Shown one piece after another: positions 19,880 to 64,000 of a DNA stretch of 64,000 bases (its first letter is position 1; each line of letters begins with the position of its first letter). The notes below the pieces were generated by a model that saw nothing but the letters and a program-made list of their open reading frames with translations, had not been told where the DNA came from and searched no databases. The DNA comes from Sabellastarte sp. h YS-2021. Its lineage: Eukaryota; Annelida; Polychaeta; Sabellida; Sabellidae. Both the position numbers and the translations under genes were made by a program. The DNA is taken from contig OZ024933.1 in NCBI GenBank assembly GCA_964017235.1, positions 93,029,432-93,093,431 on the forward strand, read 5' to 3'.

Positions 19880-21052
19880 TATCTGAACCTAGTATATGTA
19901 TTACCTGTAATTCAAGGTCATGGATAGCCAATAGCATTGAGATATTCCTAGCCATGGCCCCTAGGGTCAAGTCCTGAGTTCTGCCCGAATTCAAAACAGA
20001 TGCAACCGCTTGATTATCACATTTAAGAATAATTTTACCAGAAATTTTATGCTATAAATCCTTCTAGACAAGCATCCAACACGATTATCTGTCTGATTGG
20101 GACATGATTGAAAAAGGCTATTCCATTAAAATGTGGCAAAAACTTTCTGAACCAATTCAAATCTCTTGATGTCATCAAAAAAAATCGAGAACTGTGAACA
20201 CATTTGGAGATATACAGCAAAGAGCCCAATAATGACTGGAGTTCCTTCTTGGTACATATTTTTTGACCAACCCAGTGTTGCTGAGCCTCTGAAAAATTTG
20301 GGATCCGTTTCTGTATCCAAAAGGTAGACAAGTGTGCAGATAGTAGGTTTTGTGCTTTAACCCTAACAGAAAATAGTCTGTAGTGTCTATTTAGGGTATA
20401 ACACCAACTTATATCTATTTTGTATATTAAAGAGCCCTTACCTAATTGTTTAATTTTATTGGTGATATGATCAATTGAAGGAACAGTTAAGATGAAATCA
20501 GTACCTAAGTAAGATTCTTTGCCTATATTATTACTTACAGCCCGGCCATGAGGAAAGCTAAGGTCCATTATTACCCCCCCCCCCAGGCTTTTTCCTTGTC
20601 TTGAAGGGGGAAATATGAAGTTCCTGAAAGGGGGGATCCGAGAAAGGTCCGACAATTGCTCCAAATCTGATCTCTTCTTGAATATAAGCTTTTACATCTT
20701 GAGGGAACATTATAGCTGATCTATGATTTTTTGTATTCTTACCCAACTTTGAAGTTCTATTAAAATCCAATGGAAAGCCATATCTGATAAGATAGCAAAG
20801 GTGACAGTCCCAATAACCCTCCAAACACTGTTCCCATACACCCAGATTTAACTGAGATTTGACTTGAATTTGACTGGACATGAAGTTAAACGAATCCGAT
20901 TCTTTTGTAACATCATAAAGCTTAATCGGATCTGTACCTATGACACATTTGAAATTGTTTTTAGGCAAAAGCAAAGGGCCTAAAGGGTATAAAGCTGAAT
21001 TTTTGTTGATTTTGATCTTACCATTTCTGATATGTCGGATCCGAGGATGCAC
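19880..21052 (-). pseudogene. Reverse transcriptase / RNase H, pseudogene (copy A)
   Basis: The fingers region (RYGFPLDFNRTSKLG, AYIQEEIRFGAIVGPF) and IMDLSFPHGRAVSNN are readable, with a frame change at the C-run near 20574-20584. After YKIDIS a large deletion removes the rest of the palm, including the YIDD box; the sequence resumes at KKELQSLLGSLLYISKCV. RNase H is also shortened, leaving VLDACLEG and, in another frame, LKCDNQAVASVLNSGRT and VIHILGSDN. The protein cannot polymerise DNA. Confidence 0.75.
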
Positions 21053-21150
21053 CTTGCAGTTTTTGCTTGTTTTTATTTTTAACTGCTATTGCTAGTTCAT
21101 ATTTATCCTAAGGCAGATAATTTTGGGGGCACATTTTCACATGTTTTTTA

Positions 21151-21837
21151 TCAGCCACTTATTTTTGAGGTTGAGTTCTGTGACAATGGTTTACTATTGT
21201 TACCTACGTGAACTGGTTGTTTGTGAGCTGTGTTAACCTTTCTGCACCCAGCACCAAGTTGTCGTGTGTTTACACACTTTTTTGTTGGAGTATTTGATAA
21301 ATTCATAACAAGAGTATTAGCACATTGACTTTCAATCAAGTTTGAAGATTCAAACTCGTTTTTTACAAGTGAATAGTTGGGAGTAGGATTCTCATTACTG
21401 TTGTCAGTCTGGATATCAGTAGAGTTTTCATCAGCCACACTTAAATATTCAAACCTATTTGTCACAGGGATACAAAAGTGTGCACTGCTATATCCGTAAC
21501 TACTCGCTGGCTGTTTGGTGACAGAACCTGATCTCTGGGTCTTGTACTTGCCAGTAACTGGTGTACCTTCACGACTACAGGTAGGTCTGTTAATTTGTTT
21601 GCTTTTACAACTAACAGTAACTGAAGACTTTGCTACTTGGTTAACATTATTGTTATTTGTATACACACTTGAGGAGGGATTTGAGCCCACCACCTCCACA
21701 TAAGTTCTGCTCTCCAGTTACTGTTACATCCATTATGTACATTGGGACTGCATATATAGTTTTAGTATACAACATATGACTGTTTTGAATGTTATTTACA
21801 TTAAAAACTTTGTTCTGCACTACTTTACAGTGGTGCC
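21151..21837 (-). pseudogene. N-terminal part of ORF2 polyprotein (copy A)
   Basis: A polar, Ser/Asn/Thr-rich region with the short VTNRFEYLSVAD motif, corresponding to TSNRFQILQNL in copy B, FSYLSMAD in copy C and HNKFQCLQDL in copy D. In B this region precedes the reverse transcriptase in one frame. Function unknown; it is probably a linker or nucleic-acid-binding tail. Confidence 0.55.
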
Positions 21838-22655
21838 CTACTCGTTTTTTGCAACCCTGGAGGATACGCGACAATCTTTGACCATATGCCTATTCTCCTT
21901 ATCCATGGCAAAACATGCAGAACAAATGTGTTTATAAAACACCCCACCAGTTTCATGATCTTTTTGATGGTGGCACAGACCCCTCTGATAAAACCGACAA
22001 GTTGTAGCCTTGGGTTCAGATCTAGATTGTTTTGTACCTAATCCCCCTGAATTTTGACCTACTCCCCTCTGTGCATGTGCTCTCCTGATACGATCTAATT
22101 TATGTGTTTCATGCCACTCAACCTTTCCTTCCTTCATCCTACATAACAACACAGCATGGGAGGCTTTAGCTGACTGCCAGCTGAAATCATTCGCATCCTC
22201 CATAATTTTGCTCAAACATTCCAACATAGCATTTTTTACATCTAAATTTTTTTCCTCCATAGCAATAGTTGCAAAACCAGATACCCACTGGCACCAATTT
22301 AGAGCATCGCAAGAAATATGACTCTTATTATTTCCCCCTAAAACAAAGTTACTGAGGCCATGGGACTTGCCTCTTGACCCATACAATTTCATTTCCGCCT
22401 CTTTGTGATTTTGACTTGCCTGCTTCATTTAGATCCACTAACTTCCTGATCCTTTGGTCCACTTCTGCTTGAATATGCTGGCCTCCTTGCAGAGCAGCCA
22501 CTGTGGGCATCACCATCTGATCAAGCTGCGCAGGACTGGGGCTGCTGCTGGCTATAGTTGACGGCTGCTGAGGAGACTGAGAGACTTCTGTAGCTTCCTT
22601 GCTGGCCATCTTTTCCTCCATGGCTGAAATACGCCCGCCCAAGCTCTTTAATTCA
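21838..22655 (-). pseudogene. Gag-like protein with Cys/His cluster (copy A)
   Basis: A short helix region (LSELKSLGGRISAMEEK) is followed, after a frame change near 22.4 kb, by the conserved core WCQWVSGFATIAMEEKN, DANDFSWQSAKASHAVLLCRM and IDRIRRAHAQ, and then a Cys/His cluster (CRFYQRGLCHHQKDH, HICSACF, final C near the end). Copies B and D share the same core. The N-terminal C-x2-C-x3-H-x7-C finger seen in copy C is absent because the gene is truncated at the inverted repeat. Confidence 0.72.
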
Positions 22656-31174: not shown

Positions 31175-32215
31175 TTAAGTGTGTAAGTGTTTACTAAAGG
31201 TTTGTGCGACGGGAGAGGAGGATGACGGAAGGGCCCGAAGGTAGGACCAAACAGCGTTGGATTTCCATGTGCCATGGGCCTGGATGTGTTCTAATGGGAC
31301 CCCATGCTGAAACGCCCAAGAAGAGGCGGCTCTCCTAAAGGCATGAAAGGTCAGTGGTGGTTGTATGTGTAATAACTGAGACACCTTTTTCAAATGCTTA
31401 CGAGCCACGGAATCGGTGAGGACCATGGGGATACCTTTCTTTGTAATCATGAAAAGGGGATCATTTTCTGAACCCGGAATATGGCAAAGCATGGTTTTCA
31501 AGGCTACAATAGGACATATTTGTGAAGCACCTAGATATGGAACATTGATGGTTCTGGTCTCTTTTCTATCTTGGATGGTCTTAGACCATTTGATGATAAC
31601 TGTGGCACCAAACTGGGTGAAAATGACGTCTCCCCGAGCCATATGTCTAGTAAAATCATATTGTTTGGTAGTATGTGGCAACAAATTGGAAAGACGTAGA
31701 AAAGAGAAGAAGACGAAAGAGTACAAAGCTGTAAATGTGATATTATGTTGAAGACCAGCCGATGTGGCCATAACTTGGTGTAGTGTATCAATTGTGAGGC
31801 ACTGAGCAATTTTTGGAGCAAAAGGCCTGTTGATTTTGATGGATTTTAGGAGAAGAGGGATCCGACGATCCTGAAATGGATGTGTGGGAAGGCCATGTAT
31901 TATGTGAAACGCCCTTATTGCAGCCAGATTATTTGAGATGTTAGACTCTGACAAACTAGCATTGATCAAGTATTGCATATATGCTAGTAGAACTAAAGGA
32001 GTCACCTGATGCAACGACAACCCAGCAGCCACCTGGAATGCTAGAAAGTCTTTCCACATTCGGGTGTACTGTGTGAGAGTGGCGGGACGAAACCCATTCT
32101 TTAGGCTCACAGACGCCAGGGACGCCAGCTGGGCCGCCGCTGCAGGTAAGCCTGAAAAATAGTATATTATATGGTATAATTCAATAATGTTAGATCGATA
32201 TGGGAATCCACCCAA
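31175..32215 (-). CDS. Tyrosine recombinase of element B
   Basis: 346 residues from the ATG at 32215, complete. The N-terminal core-binding part covers about 25-125 (RPATLTQYTRMWKDFLAF; YLINASLSESNISNN). The catalytic part has Arg174 (SFLRLSNLLPH), Lys in IIKWSKTIQ (about 209-212), His291-x-x-Arg294 (HAFRRAA), His314 (AHGTWKSNAVW) and the Tyr325 nucleophile, so the full R-K-HxxR-H-Y set is present. It would integrate circular cDNA. The first 20 residues come from sequence just upstream of a good 3' splice site (TACTATTTTTCAG, AG at 32152-32153) that is conserved in place in copy D, so the real protein may start from a spliced transcript. It overlaps the end of the RT frame by 26 nt in a different frame because of a deletion there. 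Confidence 0.9.
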   Translation of the reverse strand: MGGFPYRSNIIELYHIIYYFSGLPAAAAQLASLASVSLKNGFRPATLTQYTRMWKDFLAFQVAAGLSLHQVTPLVLLAYMQYLINASLSESNISNNLAAIRAFHIIHGLPTHPFQDRRIPLLLKSIKINRPFAPKIAQCLTIDTLHQVMATSAGLQHNITFTALYSFVFFSFLRLSNLLPHTTKQYDFTRHMARGDVIFTQFGATVIIKWSKTIQDRKETRTINVPYLGASQICPIVALKTMLCHIPGSENDPLFMITKKGIPMVLTDSVARKHLKKVSQLLHIQPPLTFHAFRRAASSWAFQHGVPLEHIQAHGTWKSNAVWSYLRALPSSSSPVAQTFSKHLHT

Positions 32216-34610
32216 ACATGATCAGGGCCAGCGTCTCGTCTCTGGTCCTGCCTGAGGTTAGGACTTCTACAACTGCAAGGTTATCACAAAATATTTGTAT
32301 TTTCTTATTTTCCCATTGAGAAGCCCAGATTTTACATGCAACCAGTATGTTCAACATCTCGAGATGGACAATACTATAGTCGCGAAACCCCTTTGGAATG
32401 GGGAGTGCATAGACAAAGGAGCCATAAACTCCACCTAGGCCTGTAAGGGAGGCATCCAGATAAACCTGGGCATCTTGTTCAGTGATCTTGTAATATGTAA
32501 TGCCATTGTAAGTATCCAGAAAGGTTAAAAACCAGTTTAGGTCAGCAAAAAATTGTTGGTGTAGTAGTATTTTACGATGATTGACATTCTGTCTTAGCAG
32601 TGCCAACATGCGATTAAGAAAATAACGGGCAGGTTTAATGCACTTGGTGATATATAGCAAGGAACCTAGTAGTGACTGTAGGTCGCGTTTGCTACAGTAC
32701 GTCTTACTTAACCAAGAAAAACAGATATCTTTTATCTGCTGAAGCTTGTCTTTAGGGATGGAAATCGTCTGAGTGACCGTATCCACCAGTATTCCTAAGC
32801 ACACGACCTGCGTTGCAGGAGCGATCAACTTACTAGGACTGACTTCCAAGCCGAGGTCTTGCAATAAGTGTTGGAGGAACGTAAAAGACTGATGAATTTC
32901 ATGGGGCAATCCCACATAGATCAGATCATCAATATAGTTGAAAATGGTGTGAAAACCATAGTTTTTCATGATGTAACGTATAGCGTCTGAGCAACGTTGA
33001 AAAAATACAGAACCGTGCCTGTACCCAAAAGCAAGAGACCCATCGAAATAATAGTCATTGTGATGAAAACCTAGGAGATCTAGATCGCCTGGGTCTATTC
33101 TGATATGGCGGAAGGCCCTACTGATGTCAATTTTGTAAAGGAGGGCATCCGGGCCTAAGTCACGAATTGCTTGTATGATATGGTCTATTGAGGGATAGTG
33201 TAGTGTGAAATATGTATCAAGATAACTATTTTTAGACACTCCATGGTTAACAGAAAAACCCTTTGGCCAACTCAGGTCCATAATGGTACGTTTTTTGTTG
33301 GAATTTGGCTTATCCCTTACCATTAGAGGGGAGACATGCATGGGAAAAGGTTTTTCATGATATGGTCCATGTATTGCACCGTATGACAGTTCCTCCAAGA
33401 TATATTGTTCAACATGTGATGTGTTTTGGAGTGCCGACATATGGTTTGTATCTGAGGGATGGAGGATGCCATCTCGACAGAAATCTAACGGAAAGCCGTA
33501 TTCGATTAAGTCCGGCAGTTGTTTATCCCAGAATCGGTGTAAGTGATAACGCCACCTTTGGGGCTTAAGCTGAGAAGCAATAGGAATTCTGGCCCCTAAG
33601 AAATTGGGAATGCCAGTTTGTCGAACAATCTTATGGGCCGTAATGATGTCGGGAGGTCGATCATAGTCAATAGGATCGCCGTGATATACTTTGAGGGGCG
33701 TAAGCGGGATGAAGCCAAAGTCTTCACCATTTTGTTGCACACAGTTATTGTATTCCATACATTTATGCCTGTTGGCAAACACATGATCTGGTATACGCTG
33801 GGTCGAAATATCGAGGCTATTGGGGTCATGAGTTGCGTAGCAACTGTTAACATTAGTTTGTTTTGCTATGCCATTGTTAACTTGTGATGGTAAATCGTCT
33901 TGTGCAGGAAATGGATTGTCACGCCTGCCCAAAGTGACATCCATTCCCTCGGGAGTTAACCCAGTTTTGTTTTTACTGGCCAATATGGGCATGGAGGCAG
34001 TGGTCAGGTGATGAACAACCTGAGATTGCTCAATCGGTGGATTTGTTTGCAGAGAATTTGGCGACCTGACTTTCTGTGCCCGGTCAGTAATCTTATCTCT
34101 CTTTCGTTGGGAATTAGAATTACATGCACTTTGCCCTATGCTATCTGTGTGCACGCTATCCCCAGCTGTATCCGAATCTTTATTCAAGTTCTGTAGTATT
34201 TGGAAACGGTTAGAGGTGGGGATGTGACTATGTGCATCGGGTTCTACCTTGCCGGATTTTTTTGTATTCCTGAGAAAAGGTAATCTTTTGTTACCATCAA
34301 ATTGTGTATTTGCAGGGGCATAATTGTGAACCTCTTTCTGGAATTGATCCCGAGAAGCCTTGACATTGTTGATACTTGTTTTTTGGGGTAGTGTTTTCGA
34401 AACCTGTTTGTCAAGGCTAGTACTTTGCTTCTTTACGACATCTGCATATGATAAACGTGGGGAATTTTCCCGAAGAGCCCTCTGCATGTGATACCATTGC
34501 AGGGCTGTTTGTTTGTTTGTCTCAACTTCTAGTATTCGGGGGGCAAGGTGAACATTGTTGGTCTGAACGACTCGTGTGCCAAAATGACGGGTATGGGTAC
34601 CAAGACTCAT
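32190..34610 (-). CDS. Reverse transcriptase / RNase H polyprotein of element B, RNase H C-terminally truncated
   Basis: 806 residues from ATG 34610, which lies 8 nt after the Gag stop. Residues 1-360 are a polar leader including TSNRFQILQNL. The DIRS1-type reverse transcriptase spans about 400-640: IMDLSWPKG, LYKIDISRAFRHI (catalytic Asp), FGYRHGSVFFQRCSDAI, and YIDD at 559-562. RNase H begins near 715 with Asp719 (VYLDASLTG), Glu751 (HLEMLNIL) and Asp776 (FCDNLAV). After GRTRDETLA the frame runs into a shifted copy of sequence that in copy D lies about 150-170 nt further on, so the last RNase H strand with its catalytic residues (HIxGxxNxxADxLS in C and D) is deleted and the protein ends in LIMFGWIPISI. 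RT looks active; RNase H probably not. Confidence 0.9.
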   Translation of the reverse strand: MSLGTHTRHFGTRVVQTNNVHLAPRILEVETNKQTALQWYHMQRALRENSPRLSYADVVKKQSTSLDKQVSKTLPQKTSINNVKASRDQFQKEVHNYAPANTQFDGNKRLPFLRNTKKSGKVEPDAHSHIPTSNRFQILQNLNKDSDTAGDSVHTDSIGQSACNSNSQRKRDKITDRAQKVRSPNSLQTNPPIEQSQVVHHLTTASMPILASKNKTGLTPEGMDVTLGRRDNPFPAQDDLPSQVNNGIAKQTNVNSCYATHDPNSLDISTQRIPDHVFANRHKCMEYNNCVQQNGEDFGFIPLTPLKVYHGDPIDYDRPPDIITAHKIVRQTGIPNFLGARIPIASQLKPQRWRYHLHRFWDKQLPDLIEYGFPLDFCRDGILHPSDTNHMSALQNTSHVEQYILEELSYGAIHGPYHEKPFPMHVSPLMVRDKPNSNKKRTIMDLSWPKGFSVNHGVSKNSYLDTYFTLHYPSIDHIIQAIRDLGPDALLYKIDISRAFRHIRIDPGDLDLLGFHHNDYYFDGSLAFGYRHGSVFFQRCSDAIRYIMKNYGFHTIFNYIDDLIYVGLPHEIHQSFTFLQHLLQDLGLEVSPSKLIAPATQVVCLGILVDTVTQTISIPKDKLQQIKDICFSWLSKTYCSKRDLQSLLGSLLYITKCIKPARYFLNRMLALLRQNVNHRKILLHQQFFADLNWFLTFLDTYNGITYYKITEQDAQVYLDASLTGLGGVYGSFVYALPIPKGFRDYSIVHLEMLNILVACKIWASQWENKKIQIFCDNLAVVEVLTSGRTRDETLALIMFGWIPISI

Positions 34611-34618
34611 ACCCGGAG

Positions 34619-35815
34619 TTATTCGTTTTTTGTCTGTTTTTTCTGTTTATTGCGGCATTGTGATTCAGGATGAGTAAATGTTTTACCAGACGTGGCAAAG
34701 CAATGAGTGCAGATATGCTTGTAGAGGGTTCCCCGGGTATCATGGGATTTGAGGTGGGCACAGGAACCCTGGTTGTAATACTGGCACGGCATGCTTTTGG
34801 TGGCTTTAGTCGTTTGCTTTTTAGTACCTATGTGTTGGGAGGATGTACTAACCGGAGAAACATGCCTTTAAGCGTTTGCTCTTCTAACTCGGTCGATTTT
34901 TTCGACCTGTGCATAATCTTTAATTTCACCTTGTTCCATCCGGCATAAAAGAACGGCGTGACTGGCCTTTGCCGCCTCCCAGCTGAAATCATTTGCATCA
35001 TCAAAAAGTGCTATCAGATAATCTAACATAGAATTTTGAATGTCCCTGTTCTGTTCATCACGCATTATGCGGCAAAAGCCAGTCACCCATTGAATGACAG
35101 ATAGCTGGTCATATGATACCCGCTCTTTCTGTGAGCCGGACAAGACATATTCATGTGGCCATTTAACTTTGTTTGGCACAAGGACTTCTACGGGGCCGCC
35201 GCGTAACGATTTTTGTTTGTGCGTACCTGATTTTTCTGCCTCAGCTAACTCTTTGAGTCGTTTTTCAACTTGGGCTTGGATCAAGAGATCTTGTCTAATA
35301 GTGTGTAACTGTGGAATTTGGTCCACACTCTGTGGCAAGATTTGATGCTGAGTAGAATTTGGTGTAGCGGAGGTTTCCCCTTGTTTTGCACTGATACTTT
35401 TGGACTTGTCATTACTCGGATGTTTATTTTTGCTGGTCTTAACTTTTTTAGGATCATTTGTTTTTTTACAGCGAGTCTGCTCTATTTTATCAAGTCTTTG
35501 ACTGATTGTCTGTAATTGACTCAATATCTGGGAATTAATCAGTTGTTGGACTGCTGAATTGTCTGGAGCACTCTCACTAACATTATCGGATCTTTCAGAC
35601 TCCTGTCCCCCTGTTTGTTCCCCATCAGAAGTCCCCACAACATCACTACAATTTAAATCTGACTCCGAGGAACTATCAGATTCCTCATTGTGTGGTTGAG
35701 TATTCGTTTTGAGAAGTTGTGACAGGAAATCAGAATCATTATTCAACTGTAGTTGAATGGGAACTTGGATTTGATCTGCTTTGTTAGACCGCAAATTGTA
35801 AGTGCTCTCCGACAT
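34619..35815 (-). pseudogene. Gag-like protein of element B with one premature stop
   Basis: From ATG 35815 the frame is open to a TAA at 34868-34870, then continues in the same frame to TAA 34619-34621; without the internal stop it would be 398 residues. The first 150 residues are acidic and Ser-rich, followed by a short coiled-coil-like segment (ISQRLDKIEQT). The core (VIQWVTGFCRIMRDEQ, DANDFSWEAAKASHAVLLCRMEQ, IDRVRRANA) is shared with copies A and D. The Cys/His cluster CQYYNQGSCAHLKSH, HICTHCF and a last Cys lies behind the stop. Copy D has CAG where B has the TAA, so the stop is a recent substitution or readthrough. Gag presumably packages the RNA. Confidence 0.8.
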
Positions 35816-46820: not shown

Positions 46821-47813
46821 ATGAATATGGATTCTCAAAAGGCTCTTATTAATGGTGTTATTTATCAGGTTCATACATTTTGTTTTTGTCCTCTTGCTCC
46901 ATTGCAGTTATATGCTGGAGACCCTGTTCAGTGGAATTCCACTTTCACAGATTTAGAAGCACATACGTTAGTAAAGGCTATTGGCAAACCTAATTTCTTA
47001 GGTTACAGAATTCCAGTTGATTCACATTTGAATATATCTAACTGGCGTTCATATTTATCTGAGTATTGGGATGCTCAGTTGCCAGATTTATCAGATTTTG
47101 GCTTCAATTTGGATTTTTCTCGAGATAGTAAGATTACCTCGACTGAAGAACATCATGCATCTGCAATACAAAATCCCCAACATGTTCAGGTGTATATTGA
47201 CGAAGAGTTGTCCTTCAAAGCAATGTTAGGGTGTTTTCATAGTAAGCCTATTCCTTTGCATGTATCTCCCTTAATGGTTAGAGACAAACAGGATTCTAAC
47301 AAAAGGATGACCATCATGGACCTAAGTTTGCCGAAAGGGGCTTCTGTAAATGCTTCTGTCCAAAAAGACATTTACTTGGGTACTTAATATGTTCTAAATT
47401 ACCCATCTATAGATTCAATAACCAATGCTTTGTGCAAGTTAAGTCCTGCTGCAAAAATTTATAAGGTTGATATCAGCCGTGCTTTTAGGCACATCAAAAT
47501 TGATCCCATGGACATCGACCTCTTGGGTTTAAAATTTCAAGATCAGTACTTTATCAATAAATTGGTATCATTTGGATATCGTAATTGGAGCCAGATTTTG
47601 CAGCGGTGCACAGATGCCATACGGTTTACAATGCAACAGCATGGCTTTCCTCATCTATTCAACTACATAGATGAACTAATATATACTGGTTTACCATCTA
47701 ACATACACAATTCTTATCAGTTTGTGCTGAAACTACTTCAGGAACTAGGTTTGGACATTTCCAATAAGAAACTAGTCCCACCAAATACTTTAGTCACCTG
47801 TCTAGTTATATAA
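46821..47813 (+). pseudogene. Reverse transcriptase, pseudogene (copy D)
   Basis: ALPDL-type fingers (AQLPDLSDFGFNLDF), LMVRDKQDSNKRMTIMDLSLPKG, then after a TAA at 47385 and a short gap KIYKVDISRAFRHIKIDP (catalytic Asp), FGYRNWSQILQRCTDAIRF and FNYIDELIY. The normally invariant second Asp of the YIDD box is Glu here (YIDE). The thumb continues to LGLDISNKKLVPP and ends at a stop at 47813. Confidence 0.8.
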
Positions 47814-56056: not shown

Positions 56057-56321
56057 ATGAAATAACAGTATGAATTTTCTGGAAGGATGCATGGTCTGAG
56101 CAGGTGAAATCTTCTAAGCAGGAGTTTTGCAATTGTTTGGAAAGAATGTTGATGGAAATTAGAAATAAAAATATACAATAGTAAATTGGAATGTGCAGAG
56201 AGTAGATTGGATATACTGTCTTTCAGATTACTTTCTCCTAAATGGGATCTTTGGACATTTAAAAATCATGTGTCTTTTTGTATCAATATGGTTTAATTAA
56301 TACAAGTTTAATACTTGAGTG

Positions 56322-56563
56322 TTAAAAGACAGATTTGAACAATCAATTTAGTTTGCATGTGATTGAGGCTAAACAATTTAAAAAGACCTCAGTGCAGTGT
56401 AAATCTTTTTGGACAACTTGCATTGTGACAAAGTTGGACAAATTAAAAGACAGATTTGAACAATCAATTAAGTTTGCATGTGTTTGAGGCTAAACAATTT
56501 AAAAAGACCTCAGTGCAGTGTAAATCTTTTTGGACAACCTGCATTGTGACAAAGTTGGACAAA
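56322..56563. repeat. Two 121-bp tandem units in the LINE 5' UTR
   Basis: TTAAAAGACAGATTTGAAC begins units at 56322 and 56443; both run through GACCTCAGTGCAGTGTAAA to AAAGTTGGACAAA with only a few differences. Repeated 5' UTR monomers of this kind carry promoter activity in some L1 families. Confidence 0.88.
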
Positions 56564-56839
56564 CAAGCTTGACAAACTAATTATAGTTCAAAAAGAAGTG
56601 AATTAGTGAAAGAGGGCTAAATTGGGCATTGAATAATAAAAACATGCACCTTTTGTCAACCTGCCTGACTGGTTTACCTGAGAAAACAAAGTTCATTGGA
56701 TATCACTTGTCACCATATGAAAAAGGAACAAACTATTAACTAATCTGGTTTATCAAACATACAGTGTTAGTGTCTTGTGAAGTTAGATTATCCTTTGACT
56801 ATAAAAAAAAGGAAAGTTAATCTACCAAAATAGTTAAAG

Positions 56840-58120
56840 ATGTCAGGAAAAAACACTGTTTGTAGTTTACGTGATGGAAGGAGATCTAGTTCACAGCCTA
56901 ATGTGTCTAAGTCACAAAAAAGATCCATTGACTTTGTTTCTCCCACATCACCAGAAAACACACTTACTTTGTCTTCCATGCGGATACTCCTCAAGGAAAG
57001 CATGGCTCCTGTTACTGCTGACCTTGATGACTTGAAAGCTTCAGCTCAATCTACTGATGCAAAACTGGATGAGATAACTTCCTTGACCAAAAGAATAGAC
57101 AACTTAGAAAAAGAGAATTCTGATTTGAAAAGTAAGTTAGAAAGATCAGATGCAAGGTGTAAAGCACTTGAAGAGCGTGTGATCTCTATGGAAAGTTACA
57201 GCAGGCGTCATAATCTTAAATTCATCAATGTTGCAGACCAGTCAGCCAGTGAGAATTGCGAGCAACTTATCCTAGAGCTCTGTAACAGGCTTGATATTCA
57301 CTTGGATGATCATCAGATAGATCGTGCCCACAGGCTTGGAAGTAAATCGAAAGTAAAAGCTCCAATTCTGGTTAAGTTCCTGAGCTACAAGGTCAGGCAA
57401 CGTGTGTTAAGAGAGAAAGCAAGGTTTAAAGAGAAGGGTATTCTTGTTGTGGAAGATTATCCAAAAGAAGTCCTACAGCGCCGCAAAATGTTCACACCTA
57501 CACTGAATGCTGCTTATAACTCCCATTCACACAAAGCAAGGCTGCAAGGTGACAAGTTGTTACTTGATGACAAGCTGTACTCCATTAACGATTTCAACAA
57601 GCTGCCTGAAGAGTTAAGACCTGAAAACCTCACCACAATCACAAAGCAAAACATGACAGCCTTCTTTTCGCGTCACTCCAAGCTATCAAACCACTATCCA
57701 TGTGAATTTATGCAGGATGGCGTTTTTTATGTGTCTGTTGAACAATGCCTAATGCATAAGAAAGCTGCTCTCTTTGATGACTATCACACTGCCACTGCTA
57801 TCCTGAAATGCAAGGATCCAGCTGACGCAAAAGCCTTAGGGAAAAAGGTGCATAACTACAACTCAGATGTCTGGAACAAAAATAGGGACTTGATCATGAA
57901 GTCCGCCATAGATGCGAAATTTTCCCAAAATCACTCTCTTGCTGAGTTCCTCAAGAGTACGGGCAACAACATTTTAATTGAAGCTAATCCTTTTGACCGA
58001 TACTGGGGTGTAGGTCAATCCCTACAAGATGCTAATATTTGGAAGAAGGACTTGTGGAACGGTCGTAATAAGCTTGGGACCATACTAGCTGAAATTCGTG
58101 CTAAGTTGTCTAGACAGTGA
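56840..58120 (+). CDS. LINE ORF1 protein: coiled coil, RRM-like region and C-terminal NADAR domain
   Basis: 426 residues. 1-55 are basic and Ser-rich; 60-118 form a coiled coil (LTKRIDNLEKENSDLKSKL); 118-200 match the L1/Tx1 ORF1 RRM region (ESYSRRHNLKFINV, IDRAHRLG, PILVKFLSYKVRQRVL); 200-262 resemble the ORF1 C-terminal domain. Residues 272-424 are a complete NADAR (YbiA-like, DUF1768) domain: FFSRHSKLSNHYP, VSVEQCLMHKKA (Glu301), DVWNKNRD (Trp345), AKFSQN, ILIEANPFDRYWGVG (Asp386, Trp389) and WNGRNKLG (406-413). These are the conserved residues of the family, which cleaves N-glycosidic bonds and in several characterised members removes ADP-ribose from guanine. Usual ORF1 proteins stop before this domain. 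ORF1p normally trimerises and coats the RNA; what the NADAR domain does here is unknown. Confidence 0.9.
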   Translation: MSGKNTVCSLRDGRRSSSQPNVSKSQKRSIDFVSPTSPENTLTLSSMRILLKESMAPVTADLDDLKASAQSTDAKLDEITSLTKRIDNLEKENSDLKSKLERSDARCKALEERVISMESYSRRHNLKFINVADQSASENCEQLILELCNRLDIHLDDHQIDRAHRLGSKSKVKAPILVKFLSYKVRQRVLREKARFKEKGILVVEDYPKEVLQRRKMFTPTLNAAYNSHSHKARLQGDKLLLDDKLYSINDFNKLPEELRPENLTTITKQNMTAFFSRHSKLSNHYPCEFMQDGVFYVSVEQCLMHKKAALFDDYHTATAILKCKDPADAKALGKKVHNYNSDVWNKNRDLIMKSAIDAKFSQNHSLAEFLKSTGNNILIEANPFDRYWGVGQSLQDANIWKKDLWNGRNKLGTILAEIRAKLSRQ

Positions 58121-58581
58121 TTCTGTATGAAAAACTTGAAATAGTTACTCTGTCTTTTTAAAAAACTTTAAACTAAATGTTAATCGTATTGCAAAAACAG
58201 CCTGACCATATCGAAAAAATAAGATGTTTATATGTTATTTGAACCTGTTTTTTAACTGCTATTACAAACTACCTATATTTGTTAAAGATAATGTAAGTCA
58301 GATTACTTTTACATACAAAAACTATGTCCAAATAGTTTAATAATCAAAACTGTCTATAAAACAGTGTTCTAATGTATTTAAAGTTGTTTCAAACTACCTT
58401 TTTGATCATGTTTTGTTAACATAATTAAAAACTGCTTTGATTATAATTATACGCAATACTGACTAATACTTAAAAGATTCATTTTATAAGATATGTTTCA
58501 AGTTAATTACATTTATTCAACAAGAACCTTATTGGTAGATACATCAATTTGTGCAGATCACTCTCATTTTATTTAAAAGGA

Positions 58582-58614
<33 letters not shown>

Positions 58615-59435
58615 CACTCTAAACTAATACTGATAATGTTTTGTAATTAAAACATCCTAACCTACTAAAGAAAATTATTGATCATGTTTTGTTAACTTTG
58701 ATTATGATTATACGCAAATACTGAATATCAATTAAAAGACTAATTTTATGTGATATGTTTGAATTTGATTACATTTATTCAACAAGTATCTTATTTGTAC
58801 TTACATCATTTTGTGCAGATCACTCTCATCTTATTTAAAACTATTGAAAATTGGTGTTTTTTGTTTTACGGTTCCTAATTGTAAATTGGCTGAAGGCTAA
58901 CTTTCTAAAACAAATACTGATGTTATTGTAATTAAAAGACCATTTTTAATAGTTTTTCCTTATATGTATTTTTTTTTTTTTTTTTTACAAAATAAAAACT
59001 GCTTATCATTATGATTATACATAAATACAGAATATTAATTAGAAGACTTATTTTAATAGTCCTTTTCCGTATATGTATTTTTATTCTATCTAAGTTTGTT
59101 ATTTTCAAAATTATTCTTTGATTTAATGATACACCTACCCAGAAATCCATCATAGAGTTTTAACATTAATGCCTAATATATTTTGGATATTACAAAATCC
59201 TGCAGTGGAGTTTCCCTTCCCCATTTGACCATATGCTTGTTCTGTATGTCATATTGTATATAAACATTGTACATATGTTTTTCCATGTAAATGCCAGGTA
59301 TTCAGTTTTTATAAATGTCAACGTTCATGATAGAGTCCTCTATAAAAATTACAGCAAGTGTTGCAGTGAATTATATTTAAATCTTTATAAGGAAGTGCAC
59401 ATTTTAAGTTTATTGATTGAGTCTAAAAATATGTT
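58121..59435. other. Inter-ORF region of the LINE with diverged 276-bp tandem units
   Basis: TTGATCATGTTTTGTTAAC occurs at 58402 and 58678, followed in both by TATACGCAA, ATTACATTTATTCAACAAG and TTGTGCAGATCACTCTCAT. A third partial unit lies near 58990-59090. T-runs at about 58588-58614 and 58970-58986 vary. No coding region; it could hold an internal promoter or ribosome-entry signal for ORF2, but nothing shows this. Confidence 0.75.
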
Positions 59436-62400
59436 ATGGCTAACAACCCTGAAACATTGAATATCTTTAGCCTAAATGCAAGAGGCTTGGGAGATAAAAA
59501 GAAAAGACAGGCTGTTTTCAATTGGTTAAATGACAAAGGTCCTGGTATATTTCTTATTCAGGAAGCCCACTCATGTCCTGAAAAGGAAAACGAATGGCGT
59601 TCTATGTGGAATGGTGTTATAAAATTTTCTCATGGCACTTCAAACAGCAGGGGACTTGCAGTTTTGATTTCCAGTGGCTTTGATATTAATATCACAAAAA
59701 CCGTTACCGATAATGATGGAAGGTTTTTAATCCTTACTTGCACTGTTTCAGATTTAAATCTTACATTTGTAAATATTTATGCACCTAATATTGATAAGAG
59801 AAGTGAACAAGTGGCTTTTGCCAACTCTATCTGTGAAACATTAAGTAACTACAAAGAAGAAAATATTATCTTAGGCGGTGATTTAAATATCAATCTTGAC
59901 ACCTATGCCACAGATGGACTGTATAGCAAAAACCCAGGCTATAGGAAAGCCTTATTATCGTTAATGGATTCACATGATCTTGTTGATATCTGGAGAATTC
60001 AGCACCCAGATATTCTGCGTTACACACGTCGAGAAAAGACTAAATCTGGTTTGAAGCAGTCCCGATTAGATTACTTTCTCATCCCATGTAATATGGGTTA
60101 TATCACAACTCACACTGATATCAAGCCTAGTATTAAATCTGACCATAGTCTTCTTCATATACGTTTAGCTCTTTTAGGTCAACAAAGACGAGGAAAAGGA
60201 TTTTGGAAGTTAAATGTAAAACTACTATCGGATAAAAAATACATAGAGCTTATTAAAAATGTGATAAAAGACTCGATTTCTGATGCTAAAAATCTTACAC
60301 AAGACTCTCTAATTTGGGATTTCATAAAATGTAGAATACGATCTGAGAGTATATCTTATTCCATAGCCAAAAGAAAAATGGAGAGGCAAGAGATTGAATC
60401 ATTAACTAAACACTTAAGTGAATTAGAAGAAATAATATCTACCTCACCTACTACAGAATCCTTGGATGAGTATAGCCTTATTAAAACACAGCTAAATGGT
60501 CACTATGAGGAATTAGCAAAAGGTTCTATAATCAGATCACGCTGTCAAAAAATTCATGAATCGGAAAAGCCAACCCAATACTTTTTCAACTTAGAAAAGG
60601 CCAATTACAACATTAAGCATATTAGGTCCTTAAAACATAATGATGAATACATTTCTGATCCTCAAAAAATTTTAGATCTACAGAAAAGGTATTTTTCAAA
60701 AATCTATACTGAAACAATTCATGACAGTGAAAAACTGCAATCTGAAACTAACTTTTATTTAAATAAAATTAATATTCCATCTATTTCAGAGGACAGTAAG
60801 TTTTCTTGTGACCTTCCCATTTCTTTGGAAGAAGTAAAGACAGCAGTCCAAAGTATGGCCAATAACAAATCTCCTGGCCCGGATGGCATTCCTACTGAGT
60901 TTTACAAAACCTTCTGGCCTGACATTGGCGAGTCAGTTTATAGAAGTTTTACACTTGCTTACGAGCTAGGTAAATTATGTGGTAGTCAAAAACAGGGTGT
61001 AATCACCCTTATACCGAAAAAAGACAAAGATTTAACAGATTTGAAGTCATGGCGCCCACTTTCTATCTTGAACACGGACTACAAAATTATTGCAAAAGTA
61101 TTAAGTACCAGGCTAAAATCTGTTTTAAAGGAAATTATAAACCCAGATCAGGTAGGCTACATGAAAGAGAGACTTTGTGGGGAGAATACTAGACTTATTT
61201 CAGATGTGATAGAATATTGTACAATTAAAAATCTTCCAAGCATAATCTTATTGGCGGACTTCGAAAAAGCTTTCGATTCAGTAAAATGGTCTTTTTTGAC
61301 ACAGATCTTGGGCTTTTATGGCTTTGGACAAAACTTTAGAAAGTGGATCTCTATTTTGTATAAAGACTCTGAGAGTTGTGTGACAAACAATGGGTATTTG
61401 TCTTCATTCTTTAAACTGTCAAAAGGCATCAGACAAGGTTGCCCAATAAGCGCACTGCTATTTTTGTTAATAGCTGAAATTGTAGCCATTGTTTTAAGAA
61501 GCTCCGAAAGGATACATGGCATAAATGTCAATGGGAAAAATATAAAATTCTGTCAATTAGCTGATGATTTAACATTGTTTTTATCCAATACCCCTTCTGT
61601 CTTAAGTGCAATAGAAATTTTTGAAGAATTCTACAGATATGCTGGCTTAAAGTTAAATAAATCAAAAACTATTGCTTTTCTTTTAAAAACTGATCAGGAA
61701 AAGGTCTATCAAGATGACAACATTGGTATTCAATGGACATCAAAACCATTCAAAACTTTAGGTGCATGGTTTTCCCCCGACATTGGTGAGTCCTCGCAGC
61801 TAAATATACAAGGTAAAATGATAACAATTAAAAAAATTTTAAATTCCTGGTCTGCTAGATGCCTTACCTTAAAAGGTAAGATTACTGTTATAAAGTCTCT
61901 GGTAATCCCACATATTCTGCAGCTTGCTTCTATTGTAACTTTTAGCCACAATCTGATATCGGATATAGATAAAATACTGTTTGAATTCATTTGGAAAAAA
62001 AAACACCTAGTTTCAAAAAATACTTTACAGCTGTCTTACGACCTAGGAGGTTTAAAAATGGTATCTATCAACCACATTGTAGAAACAGCAAAAATCATGT
62101 GGGTTAAAAGGTTTTTCAGTGAAATAAATGCAAGTTGGAAAATCTTGGCATCAGAGCTGATGGGACTTGGAAAACATGTCTTGTTGAAAAAACAGTCTTT
62201 CAATAGTATCAAAAATAATGTGAAGACTATCTTCTACTATGATCTATTACGTATTTGGTTTCAATTTCTGATGAAAAATTTAAAAAATGTAGATAACGTG
62301 CTTCATGAGCCAATTTTTAATAATCCCCATTTCTTGGTGGGAAATCATCCATTATCATCTCAGAATGTGAAAAATCCAGTGTTAAAGTGTTTCACTGTCC

Positions 62401-63218
62401 AGGACATTTGGGACAGTGATCATGATACTTTCAGATCTAGAAATTATATTGAAAATTTTTATAACATTAGTTTGCCATATATGTTATACAATCAGGTTGT
62501 TAGATCAGTGTCATCTGTAATGAAGTTGATTAACAAATGTGGTAACAACATTGCCCTGGAAAGATGCTGTAATATTCCTGATAAGTGTCTGTCTAACATA
62601 AGCCAAATAAAAAGTTCAGAGGTTTATTCATATTTCTTAGCACTTGAGTATAAGACACCAAAGAGTCAGGAAAAATGGATTGAAAACTACCCATTTCTTG
62701 AAAGTTTGGACTGGAAACCAGTGTATTTACTTCCAAATTTAATCCTAAATGATGCTTACCTGATCACCTTTCAATATAAAATACTACATAGAGTTTTTGC
62801 CTGCAATTATAACCTCTTTAAGTGGAATATTAAAAATTCACCTCTCTGTGACATCTGTCAAAAAATAGACAATCTTGAACATTATTTCTACTATTGCATA
62901 GACACAAATGTATTCTGGGTTCAAGTAAAGAGCTGGCTGAACCAGTTGTTATCTATTGAATTGAGCTTGACTGTCTTGGAGATATTTTTCGGAGTCTTAA
63001 AGTTGGACCCAAAGGACTGGTATACAGTTAACTTTGTTATACTAATAGGGAAAAAATTTATATCAAAGTGCAAAAAAAATAACAAAGAATTATTTTTTAA
63101 CAATTTTCTGGAGTACCTAAATTGGATGTTAAGTTTAGAAGAGGGGGTCTACATCAGGCAGGGAAAATCAACAGCATTCTCTGCAAGATATAGCCTCTTG
63201 CAAGCACATTTTTTCTAA
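59436..63218 (+). CDS. LINE ORF2 protein: apurinic-type endonuclease, reverse transcriptase, CCHC C-terminus
   Basis: 1260 residues, uninterrupted. The endonuclease spans about 8-240: SLNARG (Asn14), QEAH (Glu43), IYAPN, GGDLNI (Asp149, Asn151) and SDHSLL (Asp236, His237). The reverse transcriptase covers about 470-760: SPGPDGIPTEFYKTFW, LIPKKDKDLTDLKSWRPLSI, LLADFEKAFDSVKW (Asp608), KGIRQGCPISALLF and LADDLTLF (Asp710, Asp711). A C-terminal CDICQKIDNLEHYFYYC (Cys1138, Cys1141, His1149, Cys1154) gives the C-x2-C-x7-H-x4-C knuckle found in L1/Tx1 ORF2. It nicks DNA and primes reverse transcription at the target. The start ATG follows a TTATGG context; the first frame-consistent Met is used. 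Confidence 0.93.
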   Translation: MANNPETLNIFSLNARGLGDKKKRQAVFNWLNDKGPGIFLIQEAHSCPEKENEWRSMWNGVIKFSHGTSNSRGLAVLISSGFDINITKTVTDNDGRFLILTCTVSDLNLTFVNIYAPNIDKRSEQVAFANSICETLSNYKEENIILGGDLNINLDTYATDGLYSKNPGYRKALLSLMDSHDLVDIWRIQHPDILRYTRREKTKSGLKQSRLDYFLIPCNMGYITTHTDIKPSIKSDHSLLHIRLALLGQQRRGKGFWKLNVKLLSDKKYIELIKNVIKDSISDAKNLTQDSLIWDFIKCRIRSESISYSIAKRKMERQEIESLTKHLSELEEIISTSPTTESLDEYSLIKTQLNGHYEELAKGSIIRSRCQKIHESEKPTQYFFNLEKANYNIKHIRSLKHNDEYISDPQKILDLQKRYFSKIYTETIHDSEKLQSETNFYLNKINIPSISEDSKFSCDLPISLEEVKTAVQSMANNKSPGPDGIPTEFYKTFWPDIGESVYRSFTLAYELGKLCGSQKQGVITLIPKKDKDLTDLKSWRPLSILNTDYKIIAKVLSTRLKSVLKEIINPDQVGYMKERLCGENTRLISDVIEYCTIKNLPSIILLADFEKAFDSVKWSFLTQILGFYGFGQNFRKWISILYKDSESCVTNNGYLSSFFKLSKGIRQGCPISALLFLLIAEIVAIVLRSSERIHGINVNGKNIKFCQLADDLTLFLSNTPSVLSAIEIFEEFYRYAGLKLNKSKTIAFLLKTDQEKVYQDDNIGIQWTSKPFKTLGAWFSPDIGESSQLNIQGKMITIKKILNSWSARCLTLKGKITVIKSLVIPHILQLASIVTFSHNLISDIDKILFEFIWKKKHLVSKNTLQLSYDLGGLKMVSINHIVETAKIMWVKRFFSEINASWKILASELMGLGKHVLLKKQSFNSIKNNVKTIFYYDLLRIWFQFLMKNLKNVDNVLHEPIFNNPHFLVGNHPLSSQNVKNPVLKCFTVQDIWDSDHDTFRSRNYIENFYNISLPYMLYNQVVRSVSSVMKLINKCGNNIALERCCNIPDKCLSNISQIKSSEVYSYFLALEYKTPKSQEKWIENYPFLESLDWKPVYLLPNLILNDAYLITFQYKILHRVFACNYNLFKWNIKNSPLCDICQKIDNLEHYFYYCIDTNVFWVQVKSWLNQLLSIELSLTVLEIFFGVLKLDPKDWYTVNFVILIGKKFISKCKKNNKELFFNNFLEYLNWMLSLEEGVYIRQGKSTAFSARYSLLQAHFF

Positions 63219-63376
63219 TTTTCTAATTTATCCATATAATGAGTGAATATGTATGTGTATCTTCCTGTACAATTTATATTCTCTTTTTGTTCTAATTATT
63301 GTCTGCTCACCTTTTGTATCTTTTTGAATATCTTTTTAGATCTATTGTACATCTTGTGTCATGCTGTTTTTCTGGC

Positions 63377-63406
63377 AATAAAAACAAAAAAAAAAAAAAA
63401 AAAAAA
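63377..63406 (+). terminator. Poly(A) signal and poly(A) tail of the LINE
   Basis: AATAAA at 63377-63382 is followed by AAC and 21 A residues (63386-63406), the genomic copy of the transcript's 3' end. Confidence 0.85.
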
Positions 63407-63416
63407 TGAAATAACA

Positions 63417-64000
63417 TTATAACAAAAGCTAATGTGTGGTGTGGTAACTTGAAGTTACTGGAGATAACTAGTCCTCAAAAGCGTTCTTGAAACTTTTGTG
63501 CAAAGGTTATTCATTACCACTTGGCCCAGAATACAAAGCAGACATCTAATGCTTTTCTACTGGTGATAAAAATTCTAATATAGAGGACATTAAAAGCAAG
63601 GAGGTTCCCGACACCTGCATAGCACATGTCACTTATACAAATTAACAAGCCATAAGTGTTAGCTTAGCAGTAATAATGTCACTGGGTTAGCTTTACTGCC
63701 ATTGTTAAGCAGTAGTTATATGCTTCACACAAATATTGTTCTGTGATATAGTCAATAACCTCTTCACCTGTATCAGTCCATGTTCAACATATGTGCAAAT
63801 TGCCTCCTCATTGATGAAATTACTGTTAACAACATTCGTTGTTCCATGTAGGTAAAAACCTTAGTTTTTGAATAGATATAAAAGGCTTAAAACTTTGATC
63901 CCTAAAAATAGAATATTTTAAAATAACACTGATGAATATTTGGGAAAAATAAGCTTGCCATTTGTGTATTTTAAAATTAGTAAATTAAATCTAATTTATA
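63417..64000. other. No gene recognised
   Basis: Flanking AT-rich sequence to the window edge; nothing supported. Confidence 0.4.

Follow-up and report, generated by a model that had tools for sequence, protein, structure and literature searches.

The subject of this analysis is a long interspersed nuclear element (LINE) in the sabellid annelid Sabellastarte sp. h YS-2021 (assembly GCA_964017235.1), located in a 64,000-nucleotide stretch of contig OZ024933.1 (positions 93,029,432 to 93,093,431, forward strand) that is hereafter called the window. The element carries two long, uninterrupted open reading frames (ORFs), and the product of the first, ORF1, ends in a NADAR domain (Table 1). Residues 8-878 of the ORF2 product match the LINE-1 ORF2 protein with an E value of 9.5e-93. 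Because of this match the element, judged from its predicted proteins, belongs to the L1/Tx1 group (APE-type endonuclease, L1-like reverse transcriptase (RT)). The poly(A) tail, the candidate target-site duplication and the start shared with two other genome copies together indicate an inserted element. The target-site duplication is probable; candidate duplications found by eye in those two copies comprise 18 bases (the copy on contig C19) and about 14 A/T-rich bases (C14). Extra bases separate the duplication from the element in all three copies, so that the 5' end is placed approximately. The stretches fetched for two further copies aligned at neither end (C3) or at the 3' end only (C8). 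The long spacer between ORF1 and ORF2 (58121-59435, 1315 bases) is A/T-rich and includes an unbroken run of 28 T (58587-58614); in some relatives more than 3 kb separate ORF1 from the next long ORF2 frame.

Table 1 Features of the LINE element (positions in the window)
Feature	Positions	Strand	Remarks
Probable 5' target-site duplication	56057..56071		exact over 11 bases, one mismatch over 15, when set against 63406-63420
LINE element	56083..63405	+	5' end at ~56075-56083, where similarity to two other genome copies starts; 3' end in poly(A)
5' untranslated region tandem duplication	56322..56563	+	121-base unit, 97% matches, 2.0 copies
ORF1	56840..58120	+	426 residues, uninterrupted frame
ORF1 coiled-coil helix	56969..57202	+	residues 44-121
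ORF1 RNA recognition motif (RRM)	57209..57457	+	~residues 124-206
ORF1 C-terminal domain (CTD)	57464..57634	+	~residues 209-265; 2yko_A alignment spans model 78-267
NADAR domain	57635..58114	+	residues 266-425 (Pfam 278-423)
Glu301 codon	57740..57742	+	= P. nicotianae E43
Lys308 codon	57761..57763	+	= P. nicotianae K50
Glu381 codon	57980..57982	+	= P. nicotianae E125, YbiA-subfamily glutamate
ORF2	59436..63218	+	1260 residues, uninterrupted; endonuclease 7-217, reverse transcriptase 526-777
Poly(A) tail	63386..63405	+	
Probable 3' target-site duplication	63406..63420		

A NADAR domain at the end of a type II ORF1 protein

A preliminary description of the window, made from its letters alone, had reported a full NADAR domain in one uninterrupted ORF1 frame behind a coiled coil and an RRM, and had named a profile search and a structure prediction as checks. 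Both agree with it. The domain passes the Pfam NADAR model PF08719 with an E value of 3.5e-40 (138.4 bits against a gathering score of 35.1), and its predicted structure has a YbiA-like fold when compared with known chains, including 8bau and 2b3w, the comparison covering the chains that Foldseek ranked. The remainder of the predicted model consists of a coiled coil followed by one RRM and then a CTD, which is the type II (L1-type) layout also found in human L1 ORF1p (2yko). Human L1 ORF1p is not known to carry a NADAR domain. The Transposase_22 model (PF02994) matched one of the 19 members of our alignment A2 at an E value of 0.011, and the window protein was not among the matches at E values up to 0.1. 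The predicted protein is a type II ORF1p with a C-terminal NADAR of YbiA type whose active-site residues are intact.

The ADP-ribose contacts of the P. nicotianae NADAR have been tabulated by Schuller et al. (PMC11543638), and mutants of the E. coli C7 NADAR described there show the importance of its counterparts of E43, K50 and E125. At the E43-equivalent, alanine has a minor effect in vitro and glutamine inactivates; a lysine to arginine change at the K50-equivalent retains activity in vitro and loses toxin rescue (PMC11543638). Read through a sequence alignment, E43, K50 and E125 correspond to Glu301, Lys308 and Glu381 of the window protein; K75, W89, R93, D130 and W133 correspond to Lys331, Trp345, Arg349, Asp386 and Trp389; and R79 and Y84 correspond to Lys335 and Tyr340. 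Because position 381 holds glutamate and not aspartate, the window domain falls in the YbiA subfamily and not with the DarT1-associated (BC4488) kind. Across the window element and 20 loci of the same genome, Glu301, Lys308, Trp345, Glu381, Asp386 and Trp389 are invariant (21/21), among them four of the six key residues that the preliminary description had singled out (Glu301, Trp345, Asp386 and Trp389). Long open frames were the basis on which these elements were picked, and there are near-identical ones among them; the identity to the window element falls as low as 21% in the N-terminal part of ORF1 and 34% in NADAR. Lys331 is replaced by asparagine in 2/21. Conservation was also followed in 40 other loci, many of them decayed, where the aligned rows are fragments and a frameshifted locus may supply more than one. 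Glu301 was found in 36/38 rows, Lys308 in 40/42, Trp345 in 37/40, Glu381 in 36/41, Asp386 in 37/41 and Trp389 in 38/42, as compared to a mean share of 0.60 for the majority residue across the 154 columns. The ORF1-NADAR proteins further include a set, P0008, P0009 and P0011-P0014, of 613-629 residues (P0009 being a 338-residue piece).

Near-fixation and recent spread

The genome searched comprises 1.786 Gb in 647 contigs. Most first-look candidates (2705 for NADAR; 3114 and 1618 for the two ORF1 queries) were left unscored, and the counts given here are not copy numbers. Of the 2705 NADAR candidates 150 were scored, and all of these lay above the Pfam cut-off. The full ORF1 query (98 scored of 3114) returned six proteins of 100% identity on six contigs. 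Two further matches were 98% identical, one of them starting at residue 23 and the other a fragment, and the rest lay at 71% and lower. The terminal 591 bases of the LINE were found in 30 copies at 99-100% and one partial copy (40 scored of 131); these near-identical 3' ends indicate that the family has moved recently, with most copies seemingly 5'-truncated.

Association of NADAR with this ORF1 was assessed with ORF1 residues 1-265 as the query, which carry no bias towards NADAR and reached relatives down to about 37% identity (144 scored of 1618). By matching rows by eye to the other searches, 102 of the 144 were assigned a NADAR; the downstream stretches of the other 42 were fetched and 39 contained the domain, giving 141/144 overall. 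The three relatives with no NADAR match are L065, in which ORF1 runs, by eye, into another retroelement; L069, in which the frame breaks just past the first NADAR residues; and L068, in which the ORF1 match stops at residue 242. NADAR is nearly always present among the relatives sampled, and the same count rejects a frequent absence of the domain from ORF1s of this lineage. The preliminary description had allowed that a survey of sibling copies might expose the domain as a chance insertion in this copy. Nothing was found in favour of a chance insertion or an annotation artefact; the six identical proteins on six contigs and the 141/144 relatives rule it out, and we give it a negligible probability. 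In locus L090 (G000:C11:82864700-82867900), a 5'-truncated copy of the window LINE lies in frame behind what appears by eye to be a gag-like retroelement ORF with a zinc knuckle; the joint frame of 867 residues ends in ORF1 from residue 23 and a full NADAR.

Substitution ratios (dN/dS, non-synonymous to synonymous) were obtained from Nei-Gojobori counts on pairs of loci. For L025/L027 the ratio is 0.09 in the coiled coil, 0.11 in RRM plus CTD and 0.09 in NADAR (dS 1.4-2.1, near saturation), and for L009/L015 the corresponding values are 0.15, 0.03 and 0.14. Farther pairs (L036/L018 and L024/L028) gave NADAR ratios of 0.32-0.34 at high dS. The window/L029 pair is saturated, with NADAR ratios of 0.05-0.13 that were defined in only 114/500 bootstraps. 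Other near-identical pairs gave 0.25-0.53 from few changes. On the whole, the ratios over longer spans show a constraint on NADAR similar to that on the RNA-binding part, and near-copies say little.

Two groups of LINEs as carriers

All 20 fetched loci contain the N-terminal part of ORF1, NADAR and a downstream ORF2-like match. Eleven of the 21 elements, the window included, have an L1/Tx1-like RT. L015 was joined to this set via an endonuclease piece only (45% over 150 residues) because its open frames held no RT match. The RTs of nine other loci (L011-L013, L017 and L020-L024) match that of the window only at E values of 3e-07 to 2e-18, and in L012 the match to the L1 ORF2 protein is confined to residues 296-736 (about 1e-19). 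A 2A-like D.E.NPGP motif lies near the ORF2 start in 9/9 of these divergent loci as compared to 0/12 of the others. By their motifs the nine are probably of CR1/L2 type. ORF1-NADAR proteins of the same kind serve LINEs with deeply different reverse transcriptases. The ORF2 of L020, one of the divergent carriers, occurs in ten full-length copies at 99-100% identity (49 scored of 38390), and therefore the ORF1-NADAR plus ORF2 layout of the second carrier is not an accident of nesting. By eye comparison, at least six of the ten have a NADAR upstream (C3:82591666, C4:106674017, C5:45055265, C5:78572346, C7:26631452 and C8:56092815, the last about 6 kb from ORF2), as does a 97% partial copy at C6:64236966.

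Exchange or common descent

Of the 21 loci, 14 offered an RT piece long enough for use and entered the trees (L010, L011, L014, L015, L019, L022 and L024 being left out), and the groups for topology tests were named after seeing the trees. In the RT tree the two carrier groups are split with support of 100/100 and the window element pairs with L009 (94/95). This pairing is rejected by ORF1 in the approximately unbiased test (p-AU 0.0057) and by its N-terminal part alone (0.0064). The tree of the N-terminal part sets L009, L018 and L028 against all others (99/97), and this split is in turn rejected by the RT data (log-likelihood difference 148, p 2e-16). The conflict indicates an exchange of ORF1s, at the least among L1/Tx1 elements. 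The ORF1 tree places the six non-L1 carriers on one side of a branch (83/86), a topology that allows both a single transfer and common descent; ORF1 does not reject a grouping of L016 with L1/Tx1 elements of the window type (p-AU 0.103), and tests on NADAR alone do not separate the readings (p 0.159 and 0.459). As proof of exchange between the groups the trees are therefore weakened, since their topology allows a common ancestor; the swap within L1/Tx1 alone is supported by the tests.

The distances speak for transfer, since ORF1s are closer across the groups and RTs are distant. The N-terminal parts of ORF1 of the window, L027 and L016 are 35-49% identical to those of non-L1 carriers and 21-46% to those of other L1/Tx1 carriers, and their RTs are 21-27% and 34-59% identical respectively (ranges that leave out L025-L027 among themselves). 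The window and L009 share 59% in RT and 21% in the N-terminal part of ORF1; the window and L020 share 23% and 41%, with 48% in NADAR. Unequal rates could mimic such a transfer, L009, L018 and L028 being long branches. From these comparisons, exchange of ORF1-NADAR between L1/Tx1 and non-L1 LINEs is likely. Reticulate evolution of ORF1 has been described within CR1/L2, together with type II ORF1s in L1, CR1, L2 and R1 (Metcalfe and Casane, PMC4120745); the word NADAR is absent from the text of that paper that was covered.

Proposed function of the domain

The NADARs that have been characterised are hydrolases that take ADP-ribose off guanine in DNA (PMC11543638, PMC11125620), and guanosine ADP-ribosylation in both DNA and RNA is reversed by NADARs in vitro (PMC11543638, PMC11833690), in line with the preliminary description. 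The reading that we favour, at somewhat less than an even chance, is that NADAR protects LINE RNA or cDNA from guanine ADP-ribosylation. In its favour stand the resemblance to an ADP-ribose-bound NADAR in domain, fold and residues, the invariant positions in 21/21 elements, the 141/144 relatives, the low ratios of L025/L027, the recent amplification, the in vitro activity of other NADARs and the occurrence in two LINE groups. ORF1p would coat the element's own RNA and so hold NADAR on the LINE ribonucleoprotein (RNP), where the domain would hydrolyse ADP-ribose from guanine bases of the RNA and possibly the cDNA. Removal of ADP-ribose would keep the template readable by the ribosome and the reverse transcriptase. 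NADAR would let the element itself oppose a host ADP-ribosyltransferase that acts on nucleic acid, or undo guanine adducts otherwise formed. The preliminary description had suggested protection from a host PARP-type defence. That interpretation is supported in part, namely as to the domain, its intact catalytic residues and its near-fixation and conservation among relatives; the enzymatic activity and the defence role are proposals. PARP10 and TRPT1 modify RNA ends; pierisin-family enzymes modify guanine, and CARP-1, a member of that family, was purified from clam (PMC8385414). A PARP-type writer fits poorly because PARP10 and TRPT1 mark RNA ends, and a guanine-specific (pierisin/CARP-1-like) writer would fit. 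The more encompassing view, a mobile counter-defence in which an RNP-tethered guanine de-ADP-ribosylase erases marks set on transposon RNA or cDNA by a host guanine-specific ADP-ribosyltransferase, the benefit being large enough that the module became nearly fixed and serves two distant LINE groups, most likely via exchange, is doubtful as a whole.

Several observations weigh against protection from guanine ADP-ribosylation. The ADP-ribose contact D86 of P. nicotianae is Ser342 in the window protein, a non-conservative change; Lys335 also varies, and Arg349 is retained in just 4/21 elements. The set P0008, P0009 and P0011-P0014 shows K308R, R349L/I/V and D386N, substitutions that may reflect drift or another substrate. 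The domain scores below the cut-off of the anti-phage NADAR model. Close pairs of loci yield little or no purifying signal: NADAR in L010/L015 differs by seven non-synonymous and no synonymous changes, and in L029/L030 the dN/dS is 0.46 (seven non-synonymous and four synonymous changes, bootstrap 0.13-1.95). A guanine-specific writer (PF22596) was not found in this genome, a result that is uninformative since 0/14 control genomes matched either.

The NCBI model passed by the window domain, TIGR02464 (140.1 bits against 73.7), is also named for a riboflavin biosynthesis intermediates N-glycosidase and not for a de-ADP-ribosylase. This name is one ground for a small-molecule N-glycosidase that clears reactive riboflavin intermediates or NAD-derived signals instead of acting on nucleic acid, and soluble derivatives of ADP-ribose are the suggested targets of viral NADARs (PMC9503650). 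Such an enzyme would hardly benefit from being joined for good to a protein that coats RNA, yet the fusion is kept in 141/144 relatives, and we regard the explanation as unlikely. An ADP-ribose reader, which would mainly bind ADP-ribose and bring the RNP to nicks or breaks that carry PARP marks and at which target-primed reverse transcription begins, is quite unlikely as well. Most of the ADP-ribose pocket is conserved and the domain forms the terminal part of an RNA-binding protein, both of which favour a reader; binding alone, however, need not require the hydrolysis residues Glu301, Lys308 and Glu381, which are present in 21/21, and characterised NADARs act on guanine-linked ADP-ribose. PARP2 reportedly has a role in L1 integration.

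Two further explanations are less probable still. A structural domain without catalysis, for instance one that adds nucleic-acid binding or assists ORF1p packing, agrees with the variation of some ADP-ribose contacts and with the variable ORF1 structure of CR1/L2 elements (PMC4120745). It would not account for a catalytic set that is invariant in 21/21 elements and that, even among often decayed copies, is held above the mean majority share of 0.60 (Glu381 in 36/41 rows, Lys308 in 40/42). An RNA-processing enzyme for retrotransposition intermediates has been put forward as a suggestion for elements of Crassostrea gigas and Ectocarpus (PMC12477816).

Relation to known elements

That a fusion of this kind might already have been described was left open by the preliminary description. 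It has been, briefly: in Repbase, several Tx1 families of Crassostrea gigas have ORF1s that are apparently YbiA-family NADARs (PMC12477816, Genome Biol 2025). Those LINEs resemble the window element in having NADAR in ORF1, and their role is a guess there too, namely RNA processing. Unlike the present analysis, that account is one sentence long and, in the text covered, is given without fixation, selection, fold, active site or a second RT group. Among the matches listed, no second report of NADAR in retrotransposons was found besides PMC12477816, most subscription papers and Repbase lying outside the scope of the search. The fusion is known in outline; what is added here is the near-fixation, the constraint, the fold, the active site, the recent amplification and the two LINE groups. 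The Ectocarpus element of the same paper is likewise a retrotransposon with a captured NADAR; unlike the window LINE, it is a long terminal repeat element with NADAR in Pol, and beyond Ectocarpus its domains matched almost only bacteria (PMC12477816). Type IV ORF1s of CR1/L2 with an esterase (PMC4120745) are likewise a case in which a LINE ORF1 took up an enzyme that was probably handed on from one LINE lineage to another; there, however, the enzyme is another one and the exchange lies within CR1/L2, as compared to the suspected exchange across the L1/Tx1 and non-L1 divide. RNA-virus polyprotein NADARs (PMC9503650) share a place inside a larger protein of a genetic parasite with an RNA stage, the parasites being viruses and not LINEs. 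The window domain shares its fold with both E. coli YbiA (2b3w) and the P. nicotianae NADAR (8bau), and with the latter also the glutamate of the YbiA subfamily and most of the ADP-ribose contacts. Neither of these two NADARs is known to be part of a retrotransposon protein.

The role of NADARs across eukaryotes, animals included, has been stated to be unclear (PMC11125620). A LINE that keeps an intact NADAR on its RNA-coating protein offers a natural test system for that role in animals. Should retrotransposition prove to benefit from the hydrolase, the animal must contain an agent that ADP-ribosylates nucleic acid, and if the counter-defence reading is true, nucleic-acid ADP-ribosylation would be a layer of genome defence in these animals. 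NADAR joins the CR1/L2 esterase among the enzymes captured into ORF1, and the fusion hints at an exchange of ORF1s between L1/Tx1 and non-L1 LINEs.

Origin of the domain and other repeats

A tree was computed for 36 NADARs, 25 of which belong to ORF1 proteins. In the best tree these 25 do not form one clade; a single clade is not rejected (p-AU 0.169), and the bootstrap of this tree had not settled. P0016 groups with phage and stand-alone NADARs (95/80) and is possibly a second NADAR capture. Scans with our alignment A5 returned no viral and one bacterial relative, and a tblastn search of the domain against phages returned 742 records, all below 60% identity.

The same genome contains a second dispersed repeat (L001-L008, 3.4 kb each) in which a NADAR is the sole long ORF. 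The ORF of L001 (161 residues) is 41% identical to the LINE NADAR and adjoins tandem units of about 166 bases, and the NADARs of the eight loci are 94-100% identical to one another. Within the stretch that was inspected, terminal inverted repeats were not seen. With a stand-alone NADAR as the query, two viral loci were matched, the better at 47% in a 353-kb viral contig. Rfam gave no match in the window. Positions 31175-35815 (minus strand) hold ORFs of 346, 806 and 315 residues that by eye resemble a DIRS-like retroelement with a tyrosine recombinase, and seemingly related pieces lie at 20047-22428 (minus strand) and 46821-47387 (plus strand).
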